Program-made: the position numbers and the translations under genes
Shown here: piece after piece, positions 226 through 19,946 of the stretch
How positions within the stretch are numbered: the stretch's first letter is position 1
Layout of the letters: every line of letters begins with the position of its first letter
Virus record (IMG/VR): IMGVR_UViG_3300027980_000094
Coordinates: 1 to 24,275 of that record
Source: a virus
Reading direction: 5' to 3' (one strand)
DNA: 24,275 bases
The notes under the pieces: model-generated
What the model saw: only the letters and a program-made list of their open reading frames with translations
Told to the model about the DNA's origin: nothing
The model's database searches: none

Positions 226-1785
226 TCAGTATCTCAATATTCTGAACTCCTTCGGTTTATGTTTCAGTAATGGGTACCATGACAGCATATATGAGTCTGC
301 TCTATCATCTTTCAGTTTAGCGTTTGACGGTTTCAGTTTATCGTTCAGTCCTGCCAGTTGTTGGTTAAGTTCTTTAATTGCTGGTATTCTTGCTTTGTTT
401 GCTGTTAGCGCATCTCTTAGTAGGTCATATCCTTCTTGTTTTTCCGTTGTAAAGTTGAACGGTTGCACTCTTGATTTTCCGAACATTTTTTCTAGTCTTG
501 GTATCATCCATCTTGCTCCTTTGTTATCTGGCACTACCCACTTCATTGGGTACCTTGTTTTCAGTTTAGCCAGGTCTTTTTCTAGATATATCAGGTCTTC
601 CCCTACTGGGTACGCCTTTTGATATATTGTTTTTGGTCTATCTTCCGGTTTGGTCGTCCATTCCGTTATGGTTATCACTGTTTCTGACTTTGCTGACCCT
701 CCCCAATCAATTCCCATTGCGCATGGTATTTGTGAGTAGTCCTTTTTATATTTGTCATCTTGCCTATCTTTCAGCAGTTGCGAGTCGAAGTATGGGTCTG
801 ATATTGTTTCAAATGACGCTTCATACTCTTGCCTGAACATTGGCAGTCGCTTTTTTCTGATTGCGTCCGCTTTAGTTCTCTTCATTTCCGTTTGCCACTG
901 CTCATCATTACGTACCTGCCATGGGTACCATACCTTGACGTAGTTATTGTTAGGGTCTTCCCCTTCCGGATCAAATATTAGTTTAGCGAACATGTCCTGA
1001 TCTCCTTCCGGTGTAGTCAGGAATATTGCTTTCAGGTGTGGCTTATCTTTTTTAATTGCGATTAGCTGGTCATAGAAGTTGAACTCATCTTTACACTTCG
1101 GGTTATTTTTCCATTTCGATACTTCATCTCCGATTATGTTACCTTCTCTACCGATTGCTTTGTTTGTTGGCGGCATGGTGTTAATACGGCAAATTTGTCC
1201 GTCCTCCATTTTGAACGAAATCTGGTTAACCCTTACCTTACCTGATTTATCCCTACGTGTCACTAGTGAGTCTGTAAAGAAATTAGTACCTAGGAATCCG
1301 TTAAAGTTCTTAGCTACTACCTGGTCACCCTTCTCCATCATTTCATGTATTGGCTCTATGTACAGTGAGTTAGCTATTTCCTGGTCTTGCAGTAGTACGT
1401 TCCACGTGGTTCCAGTTAGGTCTCCCGGTAGTGTGTTGAACCTTGCTGAGTGCAGCATAAATATCTTGGTTACCGTTGATTTACCTGTACGCCTGCTCCA
1501 CGCCATTGATACATCGTTATGCTTCCTCATTAAATCTATTGCTACTCGTTGGTAGTCACGTAGTGTAATTCCTAACATCCAGTATGCGAATATATCTATG
1601 TGTTGTTTGCATGCTTCGTACAGTATTTTGTAAGTTAGTTTCTCTACCCCCATCCGGTCCATTACATACTTCTTGGTAGATACTAGGTGCTGAGTACGTC
1701 TGTATGAATCAGGTATCCTGGTGTAGTGCCGTTCATGTCTTAGTAATTCATCATATAAAAGATTCCTGTCTACTGCCTCCACCAA
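226..1785 (-). CDS. terL: Terminase large subunit (TerL), ATPase-nuclease
   Basis: This is the DNA-packaging motor that docks on the portal, pumps the genome into the procapsid and cuts the concatemer. The 519-aa length is normal for TerL. ATPase half: Walker A-like WSRRTGKST at residues 96-104, Walker B NIIGDE at 216-221 with Glu221 as the likely catalytic carboxylate, and the coupling motif TTP at 257-259. RNase H-fold nuclease half: acidic residues in GIDWG (Asp360), VVPDNKG (Asp420) and DDRADSYM (Asp497). The start is a TTG (1785) or the adjacent GTG (1782). A GAGGTGA ribosome binding site inside the last codons of the upstream gene suits either. The gene runs opposite to the portal, which is an unusual arrangement. 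Function is confident; the exact start is not. Confidence 0.95.
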   Translation of the reverse strand: MVEAVDRNLLYDELLRHERHYTRIPDSYRRTQHLVSTKKYVMDRMGVEKLTYKILYEACKQHIDIFAYWMLGITLRDYQRVAIDLMRKHNDVSMAWSRRTGKSTVTKIFMLHSARFNTLPGDLTGTTWNVLLQDQEIANSLYIEPIHEMMEKGDQVVAKNFNGFLGTNFFTDSLVTRRDKSGKVRVNQISFKMEDGQICRINTMPPTNKAIGREGNIIGDEVSKWKNNPKCKDEFNFYDQLIAIKKDKPHLKAIFLTTPEGDQDMFAKLIFDPEGEDPNNNYVKVWYPWQVRNDEQWQTEMKRTKADAIRKKRLPMFRQEYEASFETISDPYFDSQLLKDRQDDKYKKDYSQIPCAMGIDWGGSAKSETVITITEWTTKPEDRPKTIYQKAYPVGEDLIYLEKDLAKLKTRYPMKWVVPDNKGARWMIPRLEKMFGKSRVQPFNFTTEKQEGYDLLRDALTANKARIPAIKELNQQLAGLNDKLKPSNAKLKDDRADSYMLSWYPLLKHKPKEFRILRY

Positions 1786-1786
1786 C

Positions 1787-2053
1787 TTACTTCACCTCAA
1801 CATCAGCTAGTTTCTTCCGCGTAGCGGACTCAGGTAGTTGTGACTCCACCTTCATCTTATCTAGTTCATGCTTCATCAGGAACTTATAGAAATCTAGTTT
1901 ATCTTTGTATGTCTGCCTTACTTCCTGTAGAATCTTAATGTCTATTGGTTCGTTGTTAGCTTGTTTAGATTTAATGTCTTCAATCAGGTTTTCTGTTATC
2001 TGATCAAGGTCATCACTTAGTTTGTCAATTGTTAGAACGTTATTTTCTGTCAT
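1787..2053 (-). CDS. Small helical protein upstream of terL, possible small terminase subunit
   Basis: An 88-aa acidic/basic, mainly helical protein encoded just before terL and probably co-transcribed with it; its stop codon is one base from the TTG start of terL. Residues from about 40 onward (LQEVRQTYKDKLDFYKFLMKH) look like long amphipathic helices, as in TerS oligomerisation regions, but I see no clear helix-turn-helix. Assignment as TerS therefore rests mostly on position. An in-frame TTG at 2077 would extend it by 8 residues, but it overlaps the region between the predicted TATA box (2080-2087) and transcription start (~2057). I therefore choose the ATG at 2053, which has GGAG 8 bases before it. 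Confidence 0.5.
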   Translation of the reverse strand: MTENNVLTIDKLSDDLDQITENLIEDIKSKQANNEPIDIKILQEVRQTYKDKLDFYKFLMKHELDKMKVESQLPESATRKKLADVEVK

Positions 2054-2090
2054 TTCATATACTCCATCATACCACAACGTTTATATAGGT
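2054..2090 (-). promoter_or_regulatory. Archaeal-type promoter for the leftward terminase unit
   Basis: Read leftward, the sequence CCTATATAAAC (TATA core at 2087-2080) lies so that a start site 26-27 bases downstream would fall near 2057, leaving a leader of only about 4 bases before the ATG at 2053. This spacing is typical of archaeal TBP/TFB promoters with near-leaderless messages. It is inferred from spacing and composition only. Confidence 0.5.
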
Positions 2091-3933: not shown

Positions 3934-6900
3934 ATGGAAGAATCATATAAATTATTAGGTGCATTGTTAATCATCGTAATGGCTACAGGTGGAGGATCAT
4001 ATTGGATGATGACAAACTCATACGACCTTTGCGTTGTTGATGGTGTTTACGGCACATGGGAGCCAGTTGATGGCTTTTTTAATTATCAATGCTCAGTAGA
4101 CAATGTAACACAACGATGTTGGGACATTAGAGATTGGGGTGCTAACTCCAATTCGAGGTGTATGAAGTACATACATGTTGGAAACTTTACCAACTTTAAC
4201 GAAGGACATGCAGTCGGAGTATTGGACGACAGTTTAAAGATTACTTTTATGCCAGAGACAATTGAGTGTAATGTAAAAGGTAGATGCGATTTTGAGTTCA
4301 CTGTAGAAGATTACTTACAGGAAGATGCTTGCTACAATGTATCTAGCGTATACTTTACTGTTGTAAACACTACTGATATAAATGATATTGGTACTAACTT
4401 AGAGATTACTTACACTAACATTGCAGATTATGATTCTTATATTTATGTCGAAAATGATACTGGGTTAAACCTTACTGGATATACTCCAACTGAAGCATAC
4501 CAAGAGTATTTAGATACTGGTATTATTTGTAACGACAATCATACTAAGACTATCGAAGGTTACTTTAATATTGATGAGAAGTCAGGTAAGTTCGATTCAT
4601 ACTTCCCATTCCTAGGTAAATTATATTATATTGATCCATACTGGAACATATCCACTACTGGATTTAATAACGGTACATATAACAGAACTCAATTATATGA
4701 TGACAATAGAGTAAAGTCCTCAGTAGCGACATTAGACGATGTAGGTACTACGACTTCATGGTTGAATAGTAGCGATTTAATTATTCATTATAAACTTAAT
4801 GAGGCATCAGGAACATTAGAAAACTATGTCGCTGGCTCGCCAAATAATGCAACATGTACTAATTGCGTATATAGTAAGCAAGGTATTAACGATGACGCCA
4901 TAGGTCTTGTTGGTTCTAGCTCAGCACGTATATCTCAATCATATGGTTCAACACTACCAGGTGCAGGTCAAACACCGTTCACATTACTTATGTGGGCTAA
5001 ACCAACAGATGGGTTAACGTCATACTTAGCTGGATGGGGACAGTCAGGATTCGAGTTCTCACCATTCATAAATAGTGTAGGTCAAATAGGTATCACTAAT
5101 GAAGATGGTATCGCTTATTATTATGGGCTTAACACAGTATCTTATGATACATGGCACTTGTTTTCATTTTCATATAATGGTACGACGATGTGTCTTGGGT
5201 ATGATGTTGAAGATCAAACTAGATGCGTTGATGACGTATTTGATCCAGATGGTTCGACATTTTATATCGGGCGTCGAGGTATTACAGCCACATATGCAAC
5301 AATGGATGTTGATGAAGTATATTTATTCAATAGAAGTTTAAGTTTACCAGAAATAATAGAGTACTATAATTACAGTAAACATGGTTATTATGAATCAGAA
5401 ATATTTGATGGTTCAACATTAAGTTCATGGGATAACATCACATTTAATATTACTGCTGGAGGTCATTTACCAGCTAATGGAACTATTGAGACAGGATATT
5501 TAGACTATGGTGTTGATATGAGTGGAACTTCTGTATTAGTTTACTTTGAAGAAGACAATGTAACTAACTTAGTAGACAGCTCAGGTAATAGTAATTCATT
5601 CACTGAAGTTGGAAGTTCAGTTGCATACCAGGATCAAGGTGTAATTCATTATGGTTTAGGGTATTCAGAAACAGGTTACATTCAAACAACACCTAGTTAT
5701 AATTTTACAACAGGTTTCACTACAGGTGGTTGGTATAATTATAATAAAACTGGTACAAGGTTCTCATTTTCAACATTAGGTACAGCTGCATCAGGATGGG
5801 AATTTAGATTACATCCGTCAGCTTATATTGAGTACTTTTTGAATGGTGCATCATACAACACTAATGGTGTTTATGTGATGCCTCCTTACAAGTACCACCA
5901 TATAATGATGACTGCTGATATAGATAATAATCAAACTAGAGTTTATGTTAATGGTGTTAATGTATATAATAACAGTTATACAGGTGGAACTATCGCAGAC
6001 GGAAAAATATGGTATATTGGCTCAAGATATGGTGCTTATACTTGGTCAGGGAATATTGATGAAGCCTTTCTAAAAGGAGGACCTATTGATGATGCTGAGG
6101 CTATAGATATCTATAAACATCAGCGTGCTAAAGTTGAAAGCATTGAGGTCAAATCATGTAATGACGCCTTATGCTCAGGCGAAACTTATACTCCATTAAA
6201 CGTAACTCCAGATACTCAATCAATGAGTTTGGATGATAATCAATACTTCCAATACAAGGTTACTTACGATAGTGATTTCTTCGACTTCCCAGCTGAGATG
6301 GCTGACGTGAGCGTAGAGTATAGCGAGGCTATACCTGAATATACTGCGATTAACCATTTTGATGTTGTCATTCCTGATATTATATTTGATTCAGCTACTT
6401 ACACTACAATATTTAACACTACGTTTAATTTAACTACTGCCGATACATTGTATCCGCATGGTAGCTTAAACATTAAAAAACAAACATTACCTCAAGCATC
6501 AGACGTTTATATGAAGTTTTCGTTGAATGGTGATGACTTATTTGATTCAAAACTACGTACAGTACAATCAACATCTGACATTGGTGCAGTTACTATACCA
6601 CTATCAAACAAAACAGGATCTATCGGTGAAAACACTGGAGTAATTCAAGTACGAGATACTGGTAATGGTGCAATATCATTATCTAATTTCGAGGTACACA
6701 CATTAACTGATAAATCAGAACGTGGTGGCTCAATACAGATTAATACACAAACTACATCATTCAGTTTTGCTAATCAACCTACGTATGTTAATGTTGCAAA
6801 CTTTACTGTTCCTGTTACTGGTAATGGTTCAATATATGTTGACGTAGGACATAAGTTTAACGGTACTGGAGCTACAACACCGACATGTTATGTCACTGAT

Positions 6901-8229
6901 GGCGTTACGACTAGTGCAGAATATTCAAGTGCTATCACTGGTACAGGTCAAACTAAATCATCAGGTACACAATCATGGGCGAACACTTCATACTCAAGCG
7001 ATGTTGACTTTATGGTGTACTGTAAAAATGATAACACTGAAACAGTTGGTAACACAGTATCAGTATTATCATTTGTTGCAGCTGATGGTGATGGTAGTAA
7101 AATTAAAGGATTCAATAACTTTAACTCTAGCGTAACCCCTGCAACACCTCAGACATTAACTGCTGGAACTTACAATTTATTACAAGAAGATAACTATTTA
7201 GTTCAAGCTGGTGACGAGGTTGAGATATCATTTACTTTGGTAGCTCAATCAACATCAGGTTCGCAGACTGCTTACATTTATGTGAACGCTACTAATGGTA
7301 TCACTACATTATCTAAAAACTTAAGTAGATACTATGCAAATAATGCTGACATTGGAACTAGCAAGCTAGTCACATCAATTGATGTTGATACTCTTGATAC
7401 ATACAACATTTCAGCATGGCTAGTTGTTCCTGCTGGTGAAACACTTAACGTGTTATCAGAATCAATGGCTGGATTTGAGGTTACAAACTTAAACTTAACA
7501 CAAGGTAACGTACCGCCTATTGTGGATATAATAACTCCTACTGATAACTCAATAGTATTTAGTGCAGCTGGAACTATAGCATATACTGCTATTGATCCTA
7601 ACGATAACTTAGACGAATGTGGTCTTACATTAACTAACTCTACTGGTACTACTTTTATTGTAGGAACTAACACAACTAGCCCTGTTAGTATTGATTGGAC
7701 TGTATATGCTCAAGGTGATTACAACTTAACATTAACTTGTAACGATACTTTAGGTTTATCAGCTAGCAACACGCATAACGTTTCAGTAACTTTTGGTGAT
7801 ATTAGTTCAGCATACATTATTACTAATTTAACTGAGAATGTTCAAAGTGAGTTTTTCTTGATTGAATATAACTTTACTTGTAACGGTTACGATTGTTATA
7901 CAGTAAAGCGTAACTTAACTAGTGATCTGAACGAATGTACTATCCGTAGTGACCAAGAGTCATTAAAAAGCTATGGGACAATTAATAGCTCTACTACTGT
8001 AGAGGGCAATGTCTCATACCAATGTACTATTGCAAACGCTAATCCAACATTTACATTAAGCGTATACAGTAGCACGCTGGTAGCTCAAACTGATACTGAA
8101 TCAATTTCAATAATAAGTGTTATGGACGACTTAGATGAAAATCTGAATTATAGTAAGATTGCTGATTGTGTTTGGAACGAAGATGGAAGTGGTTGTTGGA
8201 ACTACAAAGAAATAGACAATATAAGGTGA
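3934..8229 (+). CDS. Giant membrane-anchored LamG/Ig-like surface protein (1431 aa)
   Basis: Domain order: a single hydrophobic helix at residues 7-26 (LLGALLIIVMATGGGSYWMM) with no clear cleavage site, so an N-terminal anchor; a Cys-rich segment (about 30-270); a LamG/concanavalin-like domain (about 280-475, starting IIHYKLNEASGT, ending DVDEVYLFNRSLSLPEI); a second one (about 535-730, including GNIDEAFLKGG); beta-sandwich regions; an Ig-like domain (about 1192-1290, PPIVDIITPTDNS, with the paired-Cys pattern ECGLTLTN...LTLTCNDTLG); and a Cys-containing tail. I count more than forty N-x-S/T sequons, consistent with archaeal N-glycosylation outside the cell. LamG plus such Ig-like repeats is a common plan in DPANN surface proteins. 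The role is inferred: adhesion, or modification of the infected cell's surface, or a virion spike. Its place between portal and protease genes is odd for a tail fibre. The start lacks a good ribosome binding site, so coupling to the gene before is likely. Confidence 0.85.
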   Translation: MEESYKLLGALLIIVMATGGGSYWMMTNSYDLCVVDGVYGTWEPVDGFFNYQCSVDNVTQRCWDIRDWGANSNSRCMKYIHVGNFTNFNEGHAVGVLDDSLKITFMPETIECNVKGRCDFEFTVEDYLQEDACYNVSSVYFTVVNTTDINDIGTNLEITYTNIADYDSYIYVENDTGLNLTGYTPTEAYQEYLDTGIICNDNHTKTIEGYFNIDEKSGKFDSYFPFLGKLYYIDPYWNISTTGFNNGTYNRTQLYDDNRVKSSVATLDDVGTTTSWLNSSDLIIHYKLNEASGTLENYVAGSPNNATCTNCVYSKQGINDDAIGLVGSSSARISQSYGSTLPGAGQTPFTLLMWAKPTDGLTSYLAGWGQSGFEFSPFINSVGQIGITNEDGIAYYYGLNTVSYDTWHLFSFSYNGTTMCLGYDVEDQTRCVDDVFDPDGSTFYIGRRGITATYATMDVDEVYLFNRSLSLPEIIEYYNYSKHGYYESEIFDGSTLSSWDNITFNITAGGHLPANGTIETGYLDYGVDMSGTSVLVYFEEDNVTNLVDSSGNSNSFTEVGSSVAYQDQGVIHYGLGYSETGYIQTTPSYNFTTGFTTGGWYNYNKTGTRFSFSTLGTAASGWEFRLHPSAYIEYFLNGASYNTNGVYVMPPYKYHHIMMTADIDNNQTRVYVNGVNVYNNSYTGGTIADGKIWYIGSRYGAYTWSGNIDEAFLKGGPIDDAEAIDIYKHQRAKVESIEVKSCNDALCSGETYTPLNVTPDTQSMSLDDNQYFQYKVTYDSDFFDFPAEMADVSVEYSEAIPEYTAINHFDVVIPDIIFDSATYTTIFNTTFNLTTADTLYPHGSLNIKKQTLPQASDVYMKFSLNGDDLFDSKLRTVQSTSDIGAVTIPLSNKTGSIGENTGVIQVRDTGNGAISLSNFEVHTLTDKSERGGSIQINTQTTSFSFANQPTYVNVANFTVPVTGNGSIYVDVGHKFNGTGATTPTCYVTDGVTTSAEYSSAITGTGQTKSSGTQSWANTSYSSDVDFMVYCKNDNTETVGNTVSVLSFVAADGDGSKIKGFNNFNSSVTPATPQTLTAGTYNLLQEDNYLVQAGDEVEISFTLVAQSTSGSQTAYIYVNATNGITTLSKNLSRYYANNADIGTSKLVTSIDVDTLDTYNISAWLVVPAGETLNVLSESMAGFEVTNLNLTQGNVPPIVDIITPTDNSIVFSAAGTIAYTAIDPNDNLDECGLTLTNSTGTTFIVGTNTTSPVSIDWTVYAQGDYNLTLTCNDTLGLSASNTHNVSVTFGDISSAYIITNLTENVQSEFFLIEYNFTCNGYDCYTVKRNLTSDLNECTIRSDQESLKSYGTINSSTTVEGNVSYQCTIANANPTFTLSVYSSTLVAQTDTESISIISVMDDLDENLNYSKIADCVWNEDGSGCWNYKEIDNIR

Positions 8230-13788: not shown

Positions 13789-14194
13789 AGCTAAGACGTT
13801 CGAGAAGCTTAGGGATAAGCTTAACTCAGACATTATAGGTCCATATGGAACTGCATTAGGACTTGGTGTAGACTTAGAGGTAAGGAAGTATTCCTTCACT
13901 ACTAATGAATACGGTGATCGTATGGATGACGTGTATGTCAGCTCAGTGTTCGTTAAGGGTATTGTAGTTAATAGTTCTGACAATACAGATAGCCAGGTAC
14001 TTGATTTGAACGTGCGTGGCGGTGAACAGAGATTGTATGTACCTGTTGATACTGTTGTTGATGACACTGCTGATGATCATTATGAGTTTGTATTTGATGG
14101 CAATACATTTGTATTAGTGTTCAGTAATAAGATTGGTAACGTGGCTAATATGGGCGGAGTTATCAAAGAGATTACTTTAAAGCCAAAGAACTAA
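13778..14194 (+). CDS. Putative head-closure/neck protein (138 aa)
   Basis: A 138-aa protein with a long helical start (RAKTFEKLRDKLNSDIIGPYGTAL) and a beta-rich remainder (VDLEVRKYSFTTNEYGDRMD, then VFVKGIVVN and FVFDGNTFVLVFSNKIG). A helix followed by a beta barrel whose loop carries 'N-x-Y-G-D' fits head-closure (stopper) proteins that cap the connector after packaging. This is inferred from position and fold pattern. I use the ATG at 13778, preceded by AGGTG at 5 bases; an in-frame GTG at 13745 has no such signal. The gene ends just before the third promoter region. Confidence 0.6.
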   Translation: MVIRAKTFEKLRDKLNSDIIGPYGTALGLGVDLEVRKYSFTTNEYGDRMDDVYVSSVFVKGIVVNSSDNTDSQVLDLNVRGGEQRLYVPVDTVVDDTADDHYEFVFDGNTFVLVFSNKIGNVANMGGVIKEITLKPKN

Positions 14195-14200
14195 TAGATA

Positions 14201-14253
14201 GTTTTATATATGTACATTACGTTATATATGTTATAGACTACGTAAGGTCTATA
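14201..14253 (+). promoter_or_regulatory. Third promoter region with repeated element and inverted repeat
   Basis: This region has a GTTTTATATA box (14201-14210) and the 18-base element TACGTTATATATGTTATA (14218-14235), identical to 8495-8512. The inverted repeat TATAGAC/GTCTATA (14232-14238 and 14247-14253) follows at once. If the inner TATATAT (14223-14229) is the TATA box, transcription would begin near 14252 and give a 20-base leader with TAGGT before the ATG at 14272. The inverted repeat would then cover the space between TATA box and start site, a classic repressor position. This suggests separate timing of tail genes; it is inferred. Confidence 0.55.
14232..14253. repeat. Inverted repeat at the tail-gene promoter (possible operator)
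   Basis: Arms TATAGAC and GTCTATA (7 bp, perfect) flank TACGTAAG, whose first six bases are themselves a palindrome. The whole 22-bp segment is close to a two-fold symmetric site such as a dimeric regulator would bind. As RNA it could only form a weak AT-rich hairpin, so a DNA operator seems more likely than a terminator. Confidence 0.45.
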
Positions 14254-14271
14254 CAATAACGTAGGTCACGT

Positions 14272-14694
14272 ATGACAATAAGTAAAGCCACATTTAGAGC
14301 TAATGTATATAGCGATGTTAGATCCGTAATTAATACTAAAGTTGCAGACCCTAAATCACGAGGGAAACAATGGATTTTTTCTACTTTACCAGACCTTACT
14401 ACTAACTTTGTTGGATACCCAATAATAATAATTTCTCCTGCTAATCGGGACAAGACTAGAGAGTTGTTTGATAATAGTCACTATGACGATTCAACTCCAC
14501 TTACAATCACAATTTACGATACTAAGAAGGCTGACGTCGACACACTATCAGATAGTGTTGATGCTGTCATGATTCCTTCAAACTTTACACAATTTACATT
14601 TGGCGACTACGACGAAGACACTAATAACATCAAACTTAATGAGCAGAACGTTCATGCTAGGACGATGACATACTTCGTTGAGGTTGACTATTAA
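14272..14694 (+). CDS. Putative tail terminator/tail-completion protein (140 aa)
   Basis: A 140-aa alpha/beta protein. An N-terminal helix (SKATFRANVYSDVRSVINTK) is followed by FVGYPIIIISPANRD, then TPLTITIYDTKKADVDTLSDSV and the closing strand MTYFVEVDY. Tail terminator proteins (gpU, gp17 of SPP1) have this order: a helix, 'YP.I.I', 'L.I.I.......L...D.I' and a final strand. It would cap the tail tube at the head-proximal end. The start has TAGGT about 5 bases upstream. The stop TAA overlaps the next ATG. Function is assigned from pattern and place. Confidence 0.6.
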   Translation: MTISKATFRANVYSDVRSVINTKVADPKSRGKQWIFSTLPDLTTNFVGYPIIIISPANRDKTRELFDNSHYDDSTPLTITIYDTKKADVDTLSDSVDAVMIPSNFTQFTFGDYDEDTNNIKLNEQNVHARTMTYFVEVDY

Positions 14695-16593: not shown

Positions 16594-16848
16594 ATGACTG
16601 ATGATATTAAGTATTTCGTATTCAAAGCTAATGTGCCGTTGGATGACCACGAGCATATGTTAAGCTGGACTAAGAGTTGTCAAGCGAAGTGTCCTGTAGG
16701 ACATGGCGATTACCGATGGGGTAAGATCTTACATGATCACCTGTTCGTTGAGAGGTTCAAGCCAACACTGGACGCATTGACTGAAGAGATTAAGAAGCTT
16801 AGAAATGAGCTACAGAAAGAAAAAGATAATGGAGGCTTGTTTAAATGA
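16594..16848 (+). CDS. Small Cys/His-containing protein (84 aa)
   Basis: An 84-aa protein with a cluster of possible metal ligands in residues 16-50 (DDHEHM, CQAKC, GHGDYRWGKILHDH), followed by a Glu/Lys coiled-coil tail (LTEEIKKLRNELQKEKDN). The Cys-x3-Cys plus several His suggests zinc or other metal binding but fits no finger class exactly. GAGGT precedes the ATG. The stop overlaps the next gene as ATGA. Its place between tube and chaperone genes points to a minor tail component or an assembly factor. The function is unknown. Confidence 0.6.
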   Translation: MTDDIKYFVFKANVPLDDHEHMLSWTKSCQAKCPVGHGDYRWGKILHDHLFVERFKPTLDALTEEIKKLRNELQKEKDNGGLFK

Positions 16849-17747: not shown

Positions 17748-18134
17748 ATGATTAAAGGAGATATACATAAAGCATTAGGCATTAGCATAGTACAACTAAA
17801 CGATCACATCGAGATTGACTTTTCAAACTGCGACGCAGAAGACATTGTAAAGTTTCAAGAAATTCCAGCGAAAGCAATGGCTGGTAAGAAGAAGGATGAC
17901 TTTACTTATGAGGATGGTATGAGATTACAATCTACATACAGAAACTACTTCAATAAGTACTTCCTAGATAAAGATCCAAAGTGGTCTAGCGATAAAGAGA
18001 CATTAGCTAAGTTCGTAGTTCAAAACATGGAAAGATTACAGCGAGCGTTCACGATTGGTTTCGGTATTAAGTCTGAAGCTGAGTACGATAAGGACATAGC
18101 TGAAGCTAAAGAAAATCAGATCAAAAAAAACTAA
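17748..18134 (+). CDS. Tail assembly chaperone, short form (gpG-like)
   Basis: A 128-aa protein encoded immediately before the tape measure, the fixed place of tail assembly chaperones, which hold the tape measure before the tube forms around it. It is largely helical and acidic in its second half (LAKFVVQNMERLQRAFTIGF, then EAEYDKDIAEAKENQIKKN). GGTGA lies 5 bases before the ATG. The last codons, AAA AAA AAC TAA, contain the slippery heptamer A AAA AAC (18125-18131). Therefore a fraction of ribosomes should shift to the -1 frame and make a longer 227-aa form. The ORF stops three bases past the heptamer, as usual for such genes. Confidence 0.8.
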   Translation: MIKGDIHKALGISIVQLNDHIEIDFSNCDAEDIVKFQEIPAKAMAGKKKDDFTYEDGMRLQSTYRNYFNKYFLDKDPKWSSDKETLAKFVVQNMERLQRAFTIGFGIKSEAEYDKDIAEAKENQIKKN

Positions 18135-18170
18135 AGTCTCCTTCTGGTAAGAAACTTACTAGGGAGGAGA
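18125..18170 (+). promoter_or_regulatory. Programmed -1 ribosomal frameshift cassette
   Basis: Slippery site A AAA AAC at 18125-18131, in the zero frame of the chaperone gene; a 5-nt spacer (18132-18136, containing the zero-frame stop TAA); then a long hairpin at 18137-18170. Its lower stem pairs TCTCCT (18137-18142) with AGGAGA (18165-18170). Past one bulged G (18164), pairing continues through two wobbles to GTAAG/CTTAC (18147-18151 with 18155-18159), closed by an AAA loop. This gives about 15 pairs in total. Heptamer, spacer and hairpin are the three textbook parts of -1 frameshifting. Confidence 0.85.
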
Positions 18171-18430
18171 AACGTAGAGCTGCATTTGCTCGACTACATC
18201 ATGAGGCAAACTCTCGTGATATGGAAGAGTTTGGCAGTGCACTTGCATATACCATCATGACTTACGAAATGGAGTCAGGTATTGCTATTGATAGACACAC
18301 AAATGGCGTATGGTTAATTCAACGTTTGCGTATGCTACCGAGATACTTGGAGCAGAAATATGGTAAGAAAGATGACGGATTAGGTAATAAAACACCAACC
18401 CCAAAGAAAGGAAAACAACTATTAAGGTAA
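18131..18430 (+). CDS. Tail assembly chaperone -1 frame extension (T domain of gpGT-like fusion)
   Basis: After slipping, translation continues with CTA AAG TCT from 18131 and stays open for 99 residues to the stop at 18430. It adds a basic helical segment (KLTREEKRRAAFARLHHEAN) and EEFGSALAYTIMTYEMESGI, and ends in a Lys-rich tail (TPTPKKGKQLLR). The full fusion is 128 + 99 = 227 aa. The first ATG within this frame (18221) has no usable ribosome binding site, and coding-like sequence lies before it, so independent translation is unlikely. By analogy with lambda gpGT, the extension would recruit the tube protein to the tape-measure complex. The tape measure gene starts 4 bases after the stop. 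Confidence 0.8.
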   Translation, partial: LKSPSGKKLTREEKRRAAFARLHHEANSRDMEEFGSALAYTIMTYEMESGIAIDRHTNGVWLIQRLRMLPRYLEQKYGKKDDGLGNKTPTPKKGKQLLR

Positions 18431-18434
18431 AATC

Positions 18435-19946
18435 ATGGTAGACGCAAAATTATATATTGATGTGGAATTTAGGAATCTTAACAAACAGATGGATCAGATG
18501 AAGAGTAACATGCAGAAATCTGTTGGCAGTAGTAAAGCTATGACTGGAGCTATGTTTAATCTGAATGACATCACTGCCGCTAATAGAGGTCTAATGGATG
18601 TAGGTAAAACTTACAATAGATTAGCTGACGCAGGTATGTTAAACAACAGAGTAGTCGCTCAACTAAAAAGACAATTCGTTGAGTTAAGTAAGACTGCTGG
18701 TAACACTATAACTAATTTAGATAAACAATTTAAATCATTAACTAAATCACAGAAGACTTTTAATTTTAATTTCTTAACATTCTTGTTTGCTGGTATGATG
18801 CTTCAAAGAGTGTTCGGTGGAGCGTTGAGATCCATCATTGATTCTTATAAGAAGATGACTGGTATGAACAGCGAGTTCAATAAAGGAGTTCTGAAGCTTA
18901 ATGCAAGCTGGAACTTCCTTAAGTTTAGTATTGCTAATGCACTGAACAGCCCTGCAGTCATCAATGGACTACAATGGCTTACTGATGGTTTAGAGACTAT
19001 GGCTGACTTCTTTGCTGAGAACGAGTGGGCGGCCCAAGCATTACTAGGCACTATGGCTGGGTTGTTTGCTTTAGGTAGTATTTCGTTATTCATTGGATCA
19101 CTTATGCAAATGGGTATGATGCTTGACTTACTTTGGAAGGGTATACTTGGAATAAAAACTGCATGGATGGCTGTATCAGCATTTTTTGCAACATCTGCAG
19201 GTGCATCTATTTTAGCTGCACTAGGGTGGATTGCTTTAGCTGTTGGGTTCATAGCATTAACATGGCGTAAAGACTTTGATGATTTACTTGGATATTTATC
19301 TACTGGATTCAGTATTTTAATTGATCTTATGAAGTCATCTGTAGGAGTTATGGTTGCTCTTTTCTCAGGAGATATTGATGCACTGAAAGCTCATGCGATG
19401 AATATAATGGTTTCATTAACACAATTATCTGTACTGGTTGGAGAGTTTTTAGTTAGAACATTATTCAAGGTAATGAATACAATTGTTGATAGTTTTATTA
19501 CTGGATGGAGGCAAATATTAAGTGGATTCATATATTTAGTTAACGGTATGATTAATGTAGCAAATAAAATACCTGGAATTAATATTGGTTTAATTGATGA
19601 AGATTTCGGTCAAGGATTCTTTGATTCAATATTAAACTATGTTGATATGCCATTTAACTTACTAGACAATGTTCTTGAAACTGGATTAGCTAACTTTAGG
19701 TCATACTTAGGTGAGTTTAGAAATGAAGACATAGGTATATTTGGTAACCAAAACAATGAACTAATACGTAGTGTTGATTTAGTTAGCAACATGAATAATG
19801 ATTTAGATAGTCAAATACAGAAACAATCTACTATAAACAGCTTATTGAGAGAGCGTAATAGTATAATGTCTGTAAACCCTGCAAACAACAATCAATCATC
19901 AGTTTTTTCAGGCAATGGTAGCTTCAATACCACAACACAAGGGTAA
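18435..19946 (+). CDS. Tape measure protein
   Basis: A 503-aa protein whose length sets tail length; at roughly 1.5 angstroms per residue this predicts a tail of about 75 nm, short for a siphovirus. The N-terminal ~105 residues are polar and helical (NLNKQMDQMKSNMQKSVG; KRQFVELSKTAGNTITNLDK). Several hydrophobic helices follow (about 108-130, 198-228 and 242-277, with ALGWIALAVGFIALTW), as is typical of tape measures that insert in the host membrane during DNA entry. The C-terminus is Asn/Ser/Gln-rich. No peptidase or lysozyme domain is visible. Position after the frameshifting chaperone confirms the call. Confidence 0.85.
   Translation: MVDAKLYIDVEFRNLNKQMDQMKSNMQKSVGSSKAMTGAMFNLNDITAANRGLMDVGKTYNRLADAGMLNNRVVAQLKRQFVELSKTAGNTITNLDKQFKSLTKSQKTFNFNFLTFLFAGMMLQRVFGGALRSIIDSYKKMTGMNSEFNKGVLKLNASWNFLKFSIANALNSPAVINGLQWLTDGLETMADFFAENEWAAQALLGTMAGLFALGSISLFIGSLMQMGMMLDLLWKGILGIKTAWMAVSAFFATSAGASILAALGWIALAVGFIALTWRKDFDDLLGYLSTGFSILIDLMKSSVGVMVALFSGDIDALKAHAMNIMVSLTQLSVLVGEFLVRTLFKVMNTIVDSFITGWRQILSGFIYLVNGMINVANKIPGINIGLIDEDFGQGFFDSILNYVDMPFNLLDNVLETGLANFRSYLGEFRNEDIGIFGNQNNELIRSVDLVSNMNNDLDSQIQKQSTINSLLRERNSIMSVNPANNNQSSVFSGNGSFNTTTQG

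Follow-up and report, generated by a model that had tools for sequence, protein, structure and literature searches.

We conclude that a virus known from IMG/VR record IMGVR_UViG_3300027980_000094 very probably produces a lambda G/GT-type tail assembly chaperone by -1 frameshifting, a reading that is based on sequence. The entire 24,275-nucleotide stretch of DNA analysed is referred to here as the window. A pair of small open reading frames, termed G and T, is located immediately 5' of the tape-measure gene, and T overlaps G in a shifted frame without an early start codon (Table 1). The 3' end of G reads ATC AAA AAA AAC TAA, which places a slippery heptamer (A_AAA_AAC) in the zero frame directly against the stop codon. 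No stop interrupts the -1 frame between 18110 and 18427; the one at 18428-18430 closes it, leaving a gap of 4 bases before the ATG of the tape-measure gene. Reading after the predicted shift would proceed as KK-LKSPSGK..., with 99 codons following KK. A first-pass annotation of this DNA had described the heptamer, a 5-nt spacer, a hairpin of about 15 pairs, the 99-codon -1 frame and the 4-base gap, and our coordinates agree with it base for base. Zero-frame heptamers of the form X_XXY_YYZ (Y = A or T) occur 14 times in the 7573 codon positions of the window, and only the example at 18125-18131 lies where a gene ends and the -1 frame continues for a long stretch into the following gene.

Table 1. 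Coordinates of the G/T junction and of neighbouring tail genes in the window.
Feature	Position	Strand	Basis
Small conserved tail-module protein	16594..16848	+	tblastn match in G014 (E 5e-4), with weaker ones in G125 and G001
G, putative tail assembly chaperone (128 aa, read in the zero frame)	17748..18134	+	Open reading frame; just 5' of the tape-measure gene
Slippery heptamer A_AAA_AAC, in G frame	18125..18131	+	Sequence; zero-frame heptamers at the equivalent junction of relatives
T, -1 frame part of predicted G-T fusion, 99 codons plus stop	18131..18430	+	Codon log-likelihood, translation
G stop codon TAA, zero frame, abutting the heptamer	18132..18134	+	Sequence
Spacer TAAAG, 5 nt	18132..18136	+	Sequence
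Hairpin, 15 pairs, presumed frameshift stimulator	18137..18170	+	RNAfold
Tape measure protein	18435..19946	+	PHROG tail length tape measure (E 4e-4); tblastn to G001 and G014

Codon log-likelihood ratios, trained on the window's own genes, were used to establish which frame carries the coding signal on each side of the heptamer. The 99 codons of T score +18.5 in the -1 frame; the other two frames, where stops are penalised, give -49 and -59. A sliding scan reveals that the coding signal moves from frame 0 to frame -1 at the heptamer. Within T, the first 30 codons, which are located 5' of an ATG at 18221, score +9.8 in the -1 frame, and no ATG, GTG or TTG is present in this frame from 18110 to 18220. 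Initiation at such codons cannot reach the first 30 codons of T, and therefore translation must pass through from G.

The hairpin predicted by the first-pass annotation was also recovered by folding with RNAfold, as a stem of 15 pairs comprising 8 lower and 7 upper pairs (two of them G-U), with a bulged base at 18162 and an AAA loop. Its energy is -17.9 kcal/mol for a 50-nt segment, which is more stable than dinucleotide shuffles (z of -3.2 to -3.5). Only 14 of the 4845 50-nt segments on this strand fold equally well, and three of these (beginning at 18126, 18131 and 18136) cover the hairpin itself. Thus, a stable structure beyond chance expectation is present within the interval of about 5-9 nt downstream where a stimulator of -1 frameshifting would be sought. 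It is plausible that the hairpin drives frameshifting in the window. An Rfam search found nothing, and a role as a terminator was rejected because no T run follows the hairpin on its 3' side.

The name 'tail chaperone' was inferred in the first-pass annotation with no family match behind it, and we likewise found no Pfam or named PHROG match for G or T of the window. A fold search with G (low-confidence single-sequence model, pLDDT 62) yielded no match above background. The tape-measure protein of the window matches the tape-measure genes of two IMG/VR contigs, G001 and G014, with tblastn E-values of ~3e-12. G of the window is weakly similar to the G proteins of its relatives (hhalign E 0.011), and T likewise weakly resembles their T proteins. 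For two of these relatives, G290 and G353, the G protein matches Phage_TAC_7 with E-values of 0.008 and 0.003, which are under the family cut-off; these weak matches support the view that the gene at the G position encodes a chaperone. In G001, G014 and G125, the gene immediately preceding G is a homologue of the small conserved gene at 16594-16848; in the window three other genes intervene.

Single-protein searches identified no close homologues of G or T. No relatives were returned either when IMG/VR was searched with G, terminase and capsid, a phage collection with G and terminase, and genome contigs with portal. Distant relatives of the terminase were reached by a self-made masked motif alignment with motif variants typed in, which served for candidate finding only, and the candidates were then confirmed by tblastn. 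In ten of these distant relatives, a zero-frame heptamer is present at the same junction, followed by T in the -1 frame and then the tape-measure gene, and the identity of the heptamer varies. Among IMG/VR contigs, G001 carries A_AAA_AAG, and G013 and G014 carry A_AAA_AAT. An Aenigmatarchaeota contig (G125) and two Halobacteriota loci (G290 and G222) carry A_AAA_AAA. In a third Halobacteriota locus (G353), the heptamer is A_AAA_AAG and, just as in the window, the stop comes directly after it; unlike in the window, a GTG overlaps this stop. Three Thermoproteota loci carry C_CCT_TTC (G977), G_GGT_TTT (G1201) and A_AAT_TTC (G1001). An automatic search for G/T pairs at 37 further archaeal loci yielded three clear new heptamer cases; inspection by eye put its other matches down to chance or stop-start overlaps.

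The first-pass annotation had suggested asking whether heptamer and stem are conserved in homologues; a heptamer, of varied sequence, is retained at the junction in the ten distant relatives. A comparably strong stem right after the heptamer is absent from all distant relatives compared and is found in the window only, and we therefore rejected the hairpin as a group-wide conserved element. The frameshift reading itself is well supported by the coding switch at the heptamer, the start-less 5' portion of T and the shared architecture in relatives.

There are exceptions to this arrangement. G002, which is nearest to the window by terminase, has a T with its own ATG, and this ATG overlaps the G stop (L013:19182-19798); the shared ATGA, which follows AAA AAA, gives an apparent reinitiation alternative to frameshifting. 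By reading, a GTG that overlaps the G stop is available as a start for T of G320, and T of G245 (Halobacteriota) lies in the +1 frame. The chaperone-like pair of G245 (L167, reverse strand, ~13995-14600) appears to need a +1 shift, comparable to that proposed for the HSTV-2 and HF1 viruses. Because of these three cases, the lineage appears to use other solutions as well.

We propose that most ribosomes would terminate at TAA to produce the 128-aa G protein. A minority of ribosomes would be stalled by the hairpin that follows the 5-nt spacer; their two tRNAs, paired with AAA AAC (18126-18131), would slip simultaneously one base back onto AAA AAA, and translation would continue for 99 more codons. 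The product would be a G-T fusion of ~226 aa, made as a small share of the total. G and GT might then act as they do in lambda, coating the tape-measure protein and bringing in tail-tube subunits at a fixed ratio.

The main rival to a ribosomal shift is slippage during transcription, wherein polymerase would stutter on the eight A residues at 18123-18130, and one extra A or two fewer would fuse G and T. No other A run in the window is as long, and nine A residues stand at the equivalent place in G013 and G014. However, G001 has only six A residues before a G and retains the same gene arrangement, and the same arrangement accompanies the non-homopolymeric sites of Thermoproteota noted above, which argues against stuttering as the common mechanism. 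Moreover, a stable hairpin 5 nt downstream is a prediction of ribosomal shifting. We therefore regard transcriptional slippage as unlikely.

Less probable again is a separate translation of T, by internal initiation or reinitiation at the in-frame ATG at 18221, which would yield a 69-aa protein and make the overlap incidental. Although the ATGA overlap at the equivalent junction of G002 offers a precedent, the ATG at 18221 is not preceded by a clear ribosome-binding site, the 30 codons 5' of it carry a coding signal in the -1 frame, and T proteins of relatives (G1201 and G1159 among them) are alike from 5' of any start codon. The least probable explanation is an assembly or sequencing error in the A tract, whose true length of nine (or six) would make G-T one ordinary open reading frame; homopolymers are error-prone and the virus is known from a single metagenomic record, but G and T are offset in the same way, independently, in other records and in long genome contigs, and heptamer, stop and hairpin are placed exactly as for frameshifting.

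The host of the virus is probably an archaeon, with indirect support. A terminase profile (A2) was used to search genomes grouped by phylum, each phylum being named after the genome used as its centre. Matches were found in 22 of 247 Halobacteriota genomes (up to 216 bits), 53 of 250 Thermoproteota (up to 274 bits), 2 of 34 from the Nanohaloarchaeota phylum (up to 224 bits), 1 of 156 Aenigmatarchaeota (160 bits) and 6 of 243 Thermoplasmatota (up to 146 bits). The bacterial side of this comparison consists of two phyla, with matches in 5 of 247 Bacteroidota genomes (up to 54 bits) and, as a partial match, in 9 of 249 genomes from the phylum of a Lachnospiraceae genome (up to 146 bits). Some of the matching archaeal contigs are 1.6-2.1 Mb in length, and because several Halobacteriota matches are among them, these are integrated proviruses. 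The portal protein of the window also matches portals of Halobacteriota proviruses (E 3e-9 to 1e-8), several of which reside in chromosome-sized contigs. Relatives from the wider group are thus integrated in archaeal genomes, and the window is a distant member at ~22-30% identity. In the terminase tree, the window joins G002 (99/96) on a very long branch.

Ribosome-binding sites in the window are of the GGTGA type in 13 cases and of the GGAG type in 3. The corresponding ratios are 12:12 and 19:14 for two methanogen viruses, 16:20 for lambda and 3:11 for Lactococcus phage c2. Since the relatives G014 (1:6) and G007 (1:8) have mostly GGAG-type sites, this register is archaea-like for the window and not for the wider group as a whole. 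The capsid was dropped as a host clue because its identity of ~20-40% to both bacterial phages and an Altiarchaeum virus is too general. The description 'apparently archaeal' in the first-pass annotation therefore holds insofar as the terminase relatives are mainly archaeal and the ribosome-binding sites have this register, but the evidence is indirect and the identities reach only ~22-30%.

Several other genes were observed during this analysis. Positions 3934-8229 of the window encode a 1431-aa protein that may be a virion adhesin; it has LamG domains and an N-terminal membrane segment. A similar large LamG protein of 1423 aa is encoded by G002 (L013:12386-16657). The terminase subunits of the window (226-2077) are located on the minus strand, divergent from the remaining structural genes. 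The tailed-virus-like Aenigmatarchaeota contig G125 (L173:7838-11527) encodes a 1229-aa protein that reads like a methyltransferase fused to ligase-like parts, followed by a gene for what is by reading a 254-aa LigD-like protein.

The first-pass annotation overstated the novelty of an archaeal frameshift, given that four haloarchaeal viruses and the fucA1 gene are already on record in PMC5009743 and PMC8211752. According to a 2021 review (PMC8211752), one archaeal -1 frameshift had been demonstrated and four had been predicted in haloarchaeal viruses. A literature search in which few subscription journals were covered found no paper on chaperone frameshifts in methanogen, Thermoproteota or DPANN proviruses. 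Therefore, an archaeal tail-chaperone -1 shift is not new in principle, and what this analysis adds is a broader distribution among archaea, in a part of the tree with little documentation of such shifts, and a cassette that is unusually complete. The sites listed above carry the predicted cases into further archaeal phyla. On balance, we lean towards the view that tail-chaperone -1 frameshifting is widespread in archaeal tailed viruses (Halobacteriota, Thermoproteota, DPANN) with both bacterial- and eukaryotic-type heptamers, and that archaeal ribosomes would respond in the window to a hairpin-stimulated A_AAA_AAC of the eukaryotic type. The compact cassette of heptamer, stop, 5-nt spacer and 15-pair stem could show directly whether archaeal ribosomes resemble those of bacteria and eukaryotes in responding to an mRNA hairpin.

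The frameshift that yields the lambda tail assembly chaperones G and GT was reportedly described by Xu, Hendrix and Duda in 2004. This -1 shift is established for lambda (PMC5009743), and the strategy is well known among bacterial viruses. Like lambda, the window has a small open reading frame before the tape-measure gene, T in the -1 frame and an X_XXY_YYZ heptamer near the end of G. Unlike lambda, it has a different heptamer, a strong hairpin directly downstream and a probable archaeal host, and no sequence homology is detectable between lambda G/GT and the window.

The window is similar to haloarchaeal viruses HVTV-1, HCTV-1, -2 and -5 in having a predicted -1 G/T shift in an archaeal-type tailed virus. 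The predictions for the HVTV-1 and HCTV viruses are said to derive from Pietila 2013 and Sencilo 2013. These four cases are recorded in PMC5009743 and PMC8211752, and the HCTV-2 heptamer is given as A_AAA_AAC (PMC5009743), identical to that of the window. Unlike these viruses, the window represents another lineage, and the available portions of the same sources mention no stimulatory hairpin for the haloarchaeal four. The experimentally studied -1 frameshift of Saccharolobus solfataricus fucA1, as presented in PMC8211752, shares with the window a slippery heptamer and a putative stem-loop, but resides in a gene for a cellular enzyme rather than a virus tail gene. Finally, HF1-group haloviruses (PMC7230728) and HSTV-2 (PMC5009743) resemble the window in carrying two overlapping chaperone open reading frames before the tape-measure gene, and differ from it in that the shift proposed in these sources is +1.
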